Below, in pieces: positions 47,388-50,550 of a stretch of DNA of 64,000 bases (its first letter is position 1; every line of letters starts with the position of its first letter). Source of the stretch: Aliiroseovarius sp. (lineage in GTDB: Bacteria; Pseudomonadota; Alphaproteobacteria; Rhodobacterales; Rhodobacteraceae). Below the pieces are notes generated by a model that worked only from the letters and a program-made list of their open reading frames with translations, searched no databases and was not told the DNA's origin. Made by a program: the position numbers and the translations under genes. The stretch is from positions 1 through 64,000 of the forward strand of contig NZ_JASBTN010000081.1 in the NCBI RefSeq assembly GCF_030148435.1, in the 5' to 3' direction.

Positions 47388-47507
47388 CGCGGCACCGGTT
47401 CCGCCGCGAGCCGGTTCGCCCATCGTCCTGCGGACCCCGCGGCCGATCCGGCGGGCAGGGCAGGGGAAAACCCGCGCACTGGACGGCGCCTGCCCCCCGG
47501 CCTATAA

Positions 47508-47582
47508 GGCGCTCATGATGTTTGCTCAGGCCATCATTATTCGAATTATCAGCCCGGCGCTCTGACGATACGAGCCGCCGGG
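47508..47582 (+). promoter_or_regulatory. Candidate ileS attenuator: alternative hairpins over a leader ORF
   Basis: GGCGCTC occurs at 47508-47514 (just before the leader ATG) and again at 47556-47562 (end of the leader ORF). Both can pair with GAG-C-CGCC at 47572-47579, so the pairings exclude each other. The downstream pairing is extended by CCC/GGG to a 10-bp stem (47553-47562 with 47572-47582, one bulged C). No U-tract follows, so control of elongation or of ribosome access rather than classical termination is more likely (inference). Confidence 0.5.
47515..47565 (+). CDS. Isoleucine-rich leader peptide upstream of ileS
   Basis: Sixteen codons, MMFAQAIIIRIISPAL, with five Ile codons within six (ATC ATT ATT CGA ATT ATC). 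An AAGG lies 5 nt before the ATG. The ORF ends 84 bp before the ileS start and overlaps the hairpin region. Ribosome stalling on the Ile run when Ile-tRNA is scarce would change the folding of the mRNA leader, as in other amino-acid attenuators. Short ORFs occur by chance, but the local density of rare-for-this-genome ATT codons and the location argue for function. Confidence 0.55.
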   Translation: MMFAQAIIIRIISPAL

Positions 47583-47649
47583 ACAAGGCGTATGGAAAAC
47601 CGCGTCGCCCCATCCAAAGTCAAGAATTCCCCTGAAAAGGACCGGACAG

Positions 47650-50550
47650 ATGTGTTCCGACACCCCCGACTACAAAGATACTCTGAGCCTGCCTCAGACC
47701 GATTTTCCCATGCGCGCGGGCCTGCCCAAACGCGAGCCCGAATGGCTGGAGCGCTGGGAGAAGATCGGCGTCTATGACCGCCTGCGCGAGAAAGAGGGCC
47801 GCGCGCCCTTTACCCTGCACGACGGCCCGCCCTACGCCAACGGCCACCTGCATATCGGCCACGCGCTGAACAAGGTGCTGAAGGACATGATCGTGCGCGC
47901 GCACCAGATGATGGGCTTCGACGCGCGCTATGTGCCCGGTTGGGACTGCCACGGTCTGCCGATCGAATGGAAGATCGAGGAACAGTATCGCAAGAAGGGC
48001 CGCAACAAGGACGAGGTCAATGTCGTCGATTTCCGCCAGGAATGCCGCAAGTTCGCGGAAGGCTGGGTCGACATCCAGCGTGAGGAATTCAAGCGCCTGG
48101 GCGTGACCGGAAACTGGCCCGATCCCTACCTGACGATGGATTTCCACGCTGAACGTGTGATCGCCGAGGAATTCATGAAGTTCCTGATGAACGGCACGCT
48201 CTACCAGGGCTCCAAACCCGTGATGTGGTCGCCGGTCGAAAAGACCGCGCTGGCCGAGGCCGAGATCGAATATCACGACCACAAGAGCCACACGATCTGG
48301 GTGCCGTTTTCGTTTGCCAATGCCGGAGGCGACCTGACTGACGCCCGCGTGGTGATCTGGACCACGACCCCCTGGACCATCCCGTCGAACAAGGCGGTGG
48401 CCTTCAACAACAAGGTGGCCTACGGGCTCTACCGCGTGGAGGCGACCGAGGAGGAAAGCTGGACCAAACCGGGTGATCTGTACCTCTTCGCCGACACCCT
48501 GGCCGAGGACGCGCTGCGCAAGTCGCGCGTGACCGGGTTCACCCGGGTGCGCGACGTGGCCGCGTCCGAATTCGAAGGGCTGGTTTGCAAACACCCGTTC
48601 CACGGGCTCGACGGCGCGGACGGCTTCTGGGACTACGACGTGCCGATGATCGACGGCGACCACGTGACCGATGACGCGGGCACGGGTTTCGTGCACACCG
48701 CGCCCAGCCACGGTGCCGACGACTACGAAGCCTTTGTCGCGCGCAACTGGATCGACCGCATGACCCACAATGTGGGCGAGGAAAGCGAGTTCCTGCCCCA
48801 CGTGCCCTTCTTCGCAGGGCTTCAGGTCTTTGACCGCAAGGGCAAGGAAGGCAAGGCGAACAATGCCGTGATCGCCAAGCTGGTCGAGGCCGGCGGCATC
48901 ATCGCGCGCGGGCGGGTGACGCACAGCTACCCGCACAGCTGGCGCTCGAAGGCGCCGATCGTGTTCCGCAATACGCCACAGTGGTTTGCCAGCGTGGATC
49001 GCGAGGTCGGCGACGGTCAGGACGATCTGGGCAAGACGATCCGGGAACGGGCCCTGACCGCCATCGACCAGCAGGTCAAATGGCATCCGCAGACCGGTCG
49101 CAACCGGCTCTACAGCATGATCGAGGCACGCCCGGATTGGGTGCTGTCGCGTCAACGCGCCTGGGGCGTGCCGCTGACCTGTTTCGTGAAGAAAGGCCTG
49201 CTGCCGACGGATGAAGGCTTCCTGCTGCGCGACCCGGACGTGAACGCCCGCATCGCCGAGGCTTTCGAGGCCGAGGGCGCCGATTGCTGGTATGAGGATG
49301 GCGCCAAGGAACGCTTCCTGGGCAATGGCTACAACGCCGATGAGTGGGAACAGGTCTTTGACGTGCTGGACGTGTGGTTCGACTCAGGCTCGACCCACGC
49401 CTTCGTGCTGCGCGACCGCGCGGACGGGACCGAGGACGGCGTGGCCGATGTCTATCTGGAAGGCACCGACCAGCACCGCGGCTGGTTCCATTCGTCGCTG
49501 TTGCAGGCTTGCGGCACCAAGGGTCGCGCGCCCTACAAGAACGTGGTGACGCACGGGTTCACGCTGGACGAGAAGGGCATGAAAATGTCCAAGTCGCTCG
49601 GCAATACCGTCGCGCCGGAGCAGGTGATCAAGCAGTACGGCGCGGATATCCTGCGCCTCTGGGTGGCGCAGTCGGATTACTCGGTCGATCTGCGCATCGG
49701 GCCGGAGATCCTGAAAGGGGTGGCCGACAGCTACCGCCGGTTGCGCAACACCATGCGCTTCATGCTGGGCAACCTGGACGGGTTCGCGGATGCCGAGCGG
49801 GTCGAACCCGCCGACATGCCCGAGCTGGAGCGCTGGGTGCTGCATCGCCTGGCCGAACTGGATCACGTGGTGCGCGACGGCTATGCCAAGTTCGACTTCC
49901 AGGGCGTGTTCTCGGCCGTGTTCAACTTTGCCACCGTGGATCTGTCGAGCTTCTATTTCGACATCCGCAAGGACGCTCTGTACTGCGACGGGGCAGACAG
50001 CCTCGAGCGCCGTTCGGCCCGCACGGTGCTGGACGTGCTGTTCCACCGCCTGACCACCTGGCTGGCACCGGTTCTGTGTTTCACCATGGAAGATGTCTGG
50101 CTGGATCGCTTCCCGGGCGAGGGCAGTTCGGTGCACCTGGTCGATTTCCCGGTTACGCCTGCCGACTGGCTGGACGAGCCCCTGGCGGCCAAATGGGTGG
50201 GTATCCGCCAGGCGCGCCGCGTTGTCACCGCAGCCCTGGAAATCCAGCGCCGCGACAAGGTGATCGGCGCCTCGCTGGAGGCCGCGCCGGTCGTGCATGT
50301 GCGCGACGCCGGGGTTCTGGACGCGCTGAAATCGGTGAACTTCGCCGATGTCTCGATCACCTCGCAGGTGGTGCTGACCGGCGATCCGATGCCCGCCGAG
50401 GCCTTCCGCCTGCCCGAGGTCGAAGGCGTGGGCGTGGTGTTCGAGAAGGCCGCAGGCGACAAGTGTCAGCGCTGCTGGAAGATCCTGCCCGACGTGGGCA
50501 GCCACGATCACGCCGGCACCTGTGGCCGTTGCGACGACGCTCTGGGCTGA
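47650..50550 (+). CDS. ileS: Isoleucyl-tRNA synthetase
   Basis: 966 residues, full-length class Ia synthetase. HIGH motif in PPYANGHLHIGHALNKVL; editing (CP1) domain with WTTTPWTIPSNKAVAF and GTGFVHTAPSHGADDYEAF; VLDVWFDSGSTHAF; KMSKS in GMKMSKSLGNTVAPEQ; C-terminal zinc site CQRCWKILPDVGS then CGRC. Charges tRNA-Ile. Preceded by a candidate Ile-rich leader peptide. Followed by a strong terminator. Confidence 0.97.
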   Translation: MCSDTPDYKDTLSLPQTDFPMRAGLPKREPEWLERWEKIGVYDRLREKEGRAPFTLHDGPPYANGHLHIGHALNKVLKDMIVRAHQMMGFDARYVPGWDCHGLPIEWKIEEQYRKKGRNKDEVNVVDFRQECRKFAEGWVDIQREEFKRLGVTGNWPDPYLTMDFHAERVIAEEFMKFLMNGTLYQGSKPVMWSPVEKTALAEAEIEYHDHKSHTIWVPFSFANAGGDLTDARVVIWTTTPWTIPSNKAVAFNNKVAYGLYRVEATEEESWTKPGDLYLFADTLAEDALRKSRVTGFTRVRDVAASEFEGLVCKHPFHGLDGADGFWDYDVPMIDGDHVTDDAGTGFVHTAPSHGADDYEAFVARNWIDRMTHNVGEESEFLPHVPFFAGLQVFDRKGKEGKANNAVIAKLVEAGGIIARGRVTHSYPHSWRSKAPIVFRNTPQWFASVDREVGDGQDDLGKTIRERALTAIDQQVKWHPQTGRNRLYSMIEARPDWVLSRQRAWGVPLTCFVKKGLLPTDEGFLLRDPDVNARIAEAFEAEGADCWYEDGAKERFLGNGYNADEWEQVFDVLDVWFDSGSTHAFVLRDRADGTEDGVADVYLEGTDQHRGWFHSSLLQACGTKGRAPYKNVVTHGFTLDEKGMKMSKSLGNTVAPEQVIKQYGADILRLWVAQSDYSVDLRIGPEILKGVADSYRRLRNTMRFMLGNLDGFADAERVEPADMPELERWVLHRLAELDHVVRDGYAKFDFQGVFSAVFNFATVDLSSFYFDIRKDALYCDGADSLERRSARTVLDVLFHRLTTWLAPVLCFTMEDVWLDRFPGEGSSVHLVDFPVTPADWLDEPLAAKWVGIRQARRVVTAALEIQRRDKVIGASLEAAPVVHVRDAGVLDALKSVNFADVSITSQVVLTGDPMPAEAFRLPEVEGVGVVFEKAAGDKCQRCWKILPDVGSHDHAGTCGRCDDALG

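Follow-up and report, generated by a model that had tools for sequence, protein, structure and literature searches.

Attenuators of the trp, his and ilv type share a common layout, in which a short leader ORF with codons for the relevant amino acid is followed by RNA hairpins. Among alphaproteobacterial attenuators, the transcript of the S. meliloti trpL leader begins at its own ATG, that of a 14-aa leader ORF (PMC7298713), and leaderless mRNAs are common in Alphaproteobacteria, with 375 in Caulobacter (PMC4117421). In the Caulobacter crescentus ilvBN leader, which serves the branched-chain pathway, Ile and Val codons stand in tandem and a Rho-independent terminator is present, according to the same paper (PMC4117421). 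In Actinobacteria, ileS is the target of a T-box with tRNA-Ile charging as the signal (PMC1262725); elements of this class recognise tRNA by direct binding, for which an ORF is not required. Closest of all is an ‘ileS leader CDS (CCNA_03934)’ in C. crescentus, which emerged from ribosome profiling and served in that study only as a negative control (Schrader et al. 2014, PMC4117421); the text of the paper gives no sequence, structure, regulation or wider distribution for it.

Little has otherwise been described of how aminoacyl-tRNA synthetase genes are controlled in Alphaproteobacteria, and the literature that we searched for an ileS leader peptide in this class yielded none. As far as searchable papers go, an ileS leader is known in one alphaproteobacterium, whereas its family, structure, geometry and other target genes apparently are not. 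Part of the finding could already be contained in two studies said to be comparative, that of Lopatovskaya et al. 2010, reportedly on attenuation of aminoacyl-tRNA operons (as cited in PMC4833913), and that of Vitreschak et al. 2004 (as cited in PMC1273637). A first-pass annotation of the locus described here had regarded an Ile leader for ileS in an alphaproteobacterium as new, a view that has to be tempered given the Caulobacter CDS.

The leader analysed here lies ahead of ileS in an Aliiroseovarius sp. contig, of which a stretch of 64,000 nucleotides (the window) was examined. It resembles the trp, his and ilv attenuators in its layout, but has no U-run terminator and no supported antiterminator, is predicted to be leaderless, precedes an aminoacyl-tRNA synthetase gene and contains a CGA-AUU unit at a fixed distance from its first hairpin. 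It differs from S. meliloti trpL, which concerns Trp and trpE(G), in sequence as well as target; with the C. crescentus ilvBN leader it has Ile codons in common but not the tandem Val codons or the terminator. With the actinobacterial T-box it shares the target gene and the proposed signal, but it has no T-box match.

Results

The leader region in the window comprises the following features, all on the forward strand:

47480-47485, + strand: -35 element TGGACG, separated from the -10 element by a 17-nt spacer
47503-47508, + strand: -10 element TATAAG, with TATAA conserved
47515, + strand: predicted (leaderless) transcription start, the A of the leader ATG, from the -10 spacing in 81 loci
47515-47565, + strand: leader ORF, MMFAQAIIIRIISPAL followed by a stop codon
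47533-47541, + strand: Ile run ATC ATT ATT, with synonymous third-base variation, an elaboration of Rhodobacteraceae
47542-47548, + strand: core CGAATTA, that is codons CGA and ATT plus the first base of the next codon
47553-47582, + strand: hairpin P1, 47553-47562 with 47572-47582, with one bulged C and the leader stop codon in its loop
47587-47606, + strand: hairpin P2, 47587-47591 and 47594-47595 with 47600-47606, defined by covariation in Rhodobacteraceae
47607-47634, + strand: C-rich, G-poor linker, rut-like, with a putative function
47635-47641, + strand: ileS Shine-Dalgarno sequence AAAAGGA (consensus AAAGGAC)
47650-50550, + strand: ileS, isoleucyl-tRNA synthetase, 966 aa

The leader ORF begins 135 nt upstream of ileS and, as the first-pass annotation had it, contains five Ile codons in six (ATC ATT ATT CGA ATT ATC, 47533-47550). 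The comparison of ileS 5' regions that it had proposed as a check was made on 81 Rhodobacteraceae loci, the window and 80 fetched from named genomes of the family; as related genomes are not independent, counts over these loci overstate the number of events. An ORF lies at the same place ahead of ileS in 80/80 of the related loci, which also keep the core and the first hairpin, while the Ile run is present in most of them and both stems covary. The ORF is in frame and 14-20 codons long in all 81 loci, carries 3-7 Ile codons in 75/81 and stops 70-100 nt short of ileS. Its C-terminal end, A-I-I-I-R-I-(I/T/S/M)-x-P-A-L, is kept, whereas the N-terminal half is variable. By this comparative evidence the leader ORF ahead of ileS is real and conserved. 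Two traits of amino-acid attenuators are thereby present in Rhodobacteraceae, namely a short ORF just ahead of the gene, the translation of which has been reported for Caulobacter only, and enrichment in codons for the amino acid of the downstream gene.

The three positions before CGA speak for isoleucine. Among the 203 codons starting with AT at these positions in the 81 loci, the third base is T in 103, C in 88, A in 12 and G in none; since G would give Met, the absence of ATG in GC-rich genomes argues for Ile. The codon after CGA-ATT is not restricted in this way, being ATN in 46 loci and ACN or AGY in 35. The core itself is fixed at the nucleotide level, with CGA in 79/81 loci and both ATT and the following A in 81/81. 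Four bases separate this A from P1 in the Rhodobacteraceae loci. For comparison, CGA accounts for 7/189 Arg codons and ATT for 8/86 Ile codons in six genes of the window. The use of CGA only among the Arg codons, together with the invariant A after AUU, looks like a constraint on the RNA beside that on the peptide. Two AT-richer metagenome-assembled genomes of the family (L042 and L063) have CTA or CCA in place of CGA, keep ATT ATT and P1, and have lost P2.

Folding of the window leader by itself gave an energy no better than that of shuffled sequences (z = -0.54), and the case for structure therefore rests on covariation. In the Rhodobacteraceae alignment, 98% of the P1 cells are paired and five of its pairs show two-sided changes. 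P2 is present in most loci and has two-sided changes at 4/7 pairs, although it is weak in the predicted ensemble of the window sequence itself. Taken jointly over 74 sequences, 94.7% of P1 and P2 cells are paired, nine pairs change on both sides, and the 63 two-sided cells compare with 17.9 in shuffles, none of 500 shuffles reaching as high; sliding the partners abolishes the signal. RNAalifold alone gave P1 but not P2; the latter was traced by inspection of that alignment and tested afterwards. The two-sided changes seen in P2, with C-G replaced by U-A in 19 sequences and a split of 29 to 23 between A-U and G-C, are independent of that tracing. Of the mutually exclusive pairings of a classical attenuator, 1:2 (P1) and 3:4 (P2) thus covary, whereas the 2:3 antiterminator is not supported, with no two-sided change in the alignment and a mean probability of at most 0.09, despite 0.94 in the window.

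The promoter appears to sit directly against the ORF. A -35-like element of the CTTTAC/CTGGAC type is recognised in 76/81 loci, with a spacer of 17 in 69 and of 18 in seven, and the first base of the -10 lies 12-13 nt from the leader start codon in 68/81 loci and 14-16 nt in the remainder. Given this fixed spacing, transcription most likely starts at about 47515, on the A of the leader ATG, leaving the ORF leaderless. The AAGG site of the first-pass annotation overlaps the -10 box TATAAG, and the promoter geometry does not support reading it as a Shine-Dalgarno sequence. The two GGCGCTC copies pointed out in the same annotation (47508-47514 and 47556-47562) and their common downstream GAGC-CGCC arm (47572-47582) do occur in the window. 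The first copy is probably not transcribed, because it follows the -10 box and lies upstream of the predicted start; it is exact in the window only (1/81 loci) and within one mismatch in 6/81.

The first-pass annotation had taken the lack of a U-tract to suggest an outcome other than termination; the + strand contains no U-run intrinsic terminator, and the sequence after P2 is C-rich in the alignment. Across 74 loci this linker has a C content of 0.38, a G content of 0.15 and a median C/G of 2.4, against a control value of 1.0 at the 27 other gene starts of the window. A C-rich, G-poor untranslated stretch is a trait of Rho-dependent attenuators, but C-richness by itself is no proof of Rho use. 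We also folded the leader with the ribosome represented by a mask that covers 15 nt counted from the P site. The mean probability of P1 is 0.92 in the absence of a ribosome and 0.91 when one stalls on the first Ile codon; it falls to 0.17 once AUU occupies the A site and to 0.00 when the ribosome has reached the stop, so that in this model the invariant AUU is the first tested stall position that opens P1. A stall at the upstream Ile run, which a starved ribosome meets first in Rhodobacteraceae, leaves P1 foldable. In Rhodobacteraceae the Shine-Dalgarno region has a mean unpaired probability of 0.46-0.49 wherever the ribosome is placed, and sequestration of this site was dropped as a candidate output since its accessibility does not change.

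A covariance model of the leader (R1) matches 146/160 Rhodobacteraceae genera at E up to 1, and 145 of them at E below 0.01. There is as a rule one match per genome, generally directly ahead of ileS, as checked against ileS matches in genomes where both could be compared; the few extra matches are weak. In a class-wide search of 385 genomes, R1 recovered Rhodobacteraceae plus four weak matches and missed the distant relatives. These four (L117-L120; E 0.001-0.006) belong to other families, and the one in G239 is on a contig other than that of ileS. Searches with Rfam models gave no match to the leader region even at E 10 and none to distant relatives at E 1; in particular, no T-box model matched either the window region or the distant relatives.

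The distant relatives were found instead by reading ileS upstream regions. About 20 of 68 such regions from other families contain CGAATTA, four bases and a CCCGG hairpin, and the core ends an in-frame ORF, R-I-(I/T/S)-x-P-(A/V)-L, usually without an Ile run, so that Ile is typically confined to one or two codons of the core. What these other families retain of the leader is the core (R-I-x-x-P-[AV]-L) together with P1. The CGAATTA-N4-CCC spacing is four in 36/37 distant loci, although these were chosen for having the core, and the conservation of core and spacing is in part a product of that selection. P1 covaries independently in the 37 loci, with 28 two-sided cells against 8.3 in shuffles and 0/1000 shuffles as high; its 3' arm was positioned where it pairs best and the paired share is accordingly raised, but the shuffle test compares only the matching of changes. 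Many of the genomes read that have a ribF-ileS operon show no element ahead of ileS, and in one (L235) it lies ahead of ribF.

Caulobacteraceae were recognised with C. crescentus MipZ (PDB 2xj4), to which the MipZ of genome G635 is 100% identical. The ileS leader of G635 (L209) reads MSSVRKISRIIRPA followed by a stop codon and contains the CGAATTA core and a CCCGGCG hairpin arm. It therefore shares core and hairpin arm with the Rhodobacteraceae leader but not the Ile run, and we infer that it is the same CDS as CCNA_03934. By eye, CCCGGCG can pair with either a close CGCCG or a distal CGCCGGG in the Caulobacteraceae loci L203-L216, L218 and L219; these alternatives are possibly a mutually exclusive pair.

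A sequence-only model of the core (R2) has matches away from ileS as well. Sixteen of the 20 places read (L229-L234, L236, L238, L240-L243 and L245-L248) precede a gene for a protein of about 100 aa with one common pattern, CFSVxAxAxPGxLxRVLExFAKRGLVP..., in other alphaproteobacterial families; 15 of these proteins were aligned. The family has no solid Pfam match and no Pfam or NCBIfam name. A profile of it, searched against PDB with E up to 10 allowed, matched just five sequences, all of them small or regulatory subunits of acetolactate synthase, each match being weak alone (best E 0.014). The protein thus resembles, in sequence, the small subunit of acetohydroxyacid synthase (AHAS) with its ACT domain. 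One further place (L244) precedes a threonine-ammonia-lyase-like gene, which scores below curated cut-offs; one is the ribF locus mentioned above, with ileS next; and two adjoin unrelated genes and may be chance matches. Acetolactate synthase and threonine ammonia-lyase catalyse steps of isoleucine synthesis. The presence of the core ahead of isoleucine-related genes other than ileS points to isoleucine independently of ileS, and these targets are the best evidence that it reads this amino acid.

Several of these loci have features of their own. A gene for a protein of about 280 aa follows the ACT-like gene in several of them (a DUF4743-NUDIX protein in L232). In four ACT-type loci (L233, L241, L245 and L247) and in the ribF-type locus L235, the leader frame extends across P1 and stops a short way into the downstream gene, out of frame with it, which suggests translational coupling there rather than attenuation. 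In L230 a single ACT-like gene is preceded by two tandem core matches (G192:C1:64971 and 65171), and in L246 CGAATTA is doubled within one leader.

Discussion

We consider it probable that the leader is a ribosome-dependent, cis-acting isoleucine attenuator of ileS. The attenuation proposed in the first-pass annotation is upheld as to the conserved Ile leader ORF and a covarying stem, and gains from the Ile-related targets; its GGCGCTC switch and the Shine-Dalgarno reading find no support. As we picture it, transcription would begin at the leader ATG and ribosomes would load directly on the leaderless ORF, pass the Ile run and arrive at CGA-AUU. Under a shortage of charged tRNA-Ile, the ribosome would stall with AUU in the A site and its front edge would open P1, because P1 starts exactly five bases after AUU. 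With ample charged tRNA-Ile, the ribosome would go on to the stop codon, which lies in the loop of P1, and leave, and P1 would fold, as would P2 in most Rhodobacteraceae. The C-rich untranslated linker could then serve as a loading site for Rho, and less ileS mRNA would be completed.

The direction of regulation, in which shortage would raise ileS, is a guess, as is its output, where a Rho-type mechanism through the linker is the leading but unproven one. The model is weakest at the Ile run: judging by the mask folding, the run and AUU may have opposite effects, or the run may do no more than prolong the delay. Further points against the model are the one or two core Ile codons of other families, the lack of an intrinsic terminator and of a supported 2:3 pairing, and the signs of constraint on the RNA beside the peptide.

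Among other explanations, the one that fares best is that a protein, IleRS or another RNA-binding protein, recognises CGAAUUA and P1, with the ORF incidental or secondary. The fixation of CGAAUUA beyond codon needs and its fixed spacing to P1 are what such a site would display. A hairpin preceded at a constant short interval by an unpaired motif, however, fits the geometry of a ribosome, and a protein site leaves aside that the frame is open in every Rhodobacteraceae locus read, that Ile is kept synonymously with no ATG in 203 codons, that the start codon lies at the promoter-defined 5' end and that the Caulobacter ileS leader CDS is translated (PMC4117421). We hold this explanation to be unlikely.

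Somewhat less likely still is translational control, in which the leader or its hairpins change access to the ileS Shine-Dalgarno sequence or ribosomes reinitiate from the leader. Leader ORFs alone have been proposed to raise expression through reinitiation (PMC4833913), and the overlapping frames of the four ACT-type leaders would suit such coupling. At ileS of Rhodobacteraceae, however, the unpaired probability of the Shine-Dalgarno region is constant, and the distance from leader stop to ileS is far above the 10-13 nt favoured for reinitiation (PMC4833913).

It is improbable that the leader mainly yields a trans-acting small RNA or peptide. S. meliloti trpL sets the precedent, as its leaderless transcript rnTrpL and peptide peTrpL both act in trans (PMC7298713), but the N-terminal half of the ileS leader peptide is not conserved and the element stays fixed to Ile-related genes, pointing to cis action; an extra trans role beside it would be compatible with this linkage. 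A classic switch, in which GAGC-CGCC would pair either with the GGCGCTC copy that covers the leader start or with the one that covers the leader stop, has all its parts in the window but is very improbable in view of a first copy that is probably untranscribed and hardly found elsewhere.

The ribosome-dependent attenuator may extend beyond Rhodobacteraceae. More tentatively, and with rather less confidence than we attach to the ileS attenuator itself, we suggest a class-wide and undescribed architecture that does without an intrinsic terminator. A leaderless ORF would present one fixed sensor unit, with CGA occupying the P site while AUU occupies the A site, at a constant short interval before a hairpin, and would control an isoleucine set in Alphaproteobacteria: ileS, ribF-ileS, the AHAS-small-subunit-like ACT protein and the threonine-ammonia-lyase-like enzyme. 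If this is true, the rare CGA together with the hairpin would render a single AUU, in place of a run of codons, hypersensitive to Ile-tRNA. The invariant CGA-AUU at its fixed hairpin distance amounts to a testable statement on a single codon as sensor.

The leader family also singles out the gene for a small unannotated ACT-like protein as one that probably belongs to branched-chain amino-acid metabolism. An isoleucine gauge of this kind is probably widespread in alphaproteobacteria and almost undescribed and, if the proposal holds, nearly every genus of Rhodobacteraceae, and scattered other families, would possess a ribosome-read counterpart to the Gram-positive ileS T-box.
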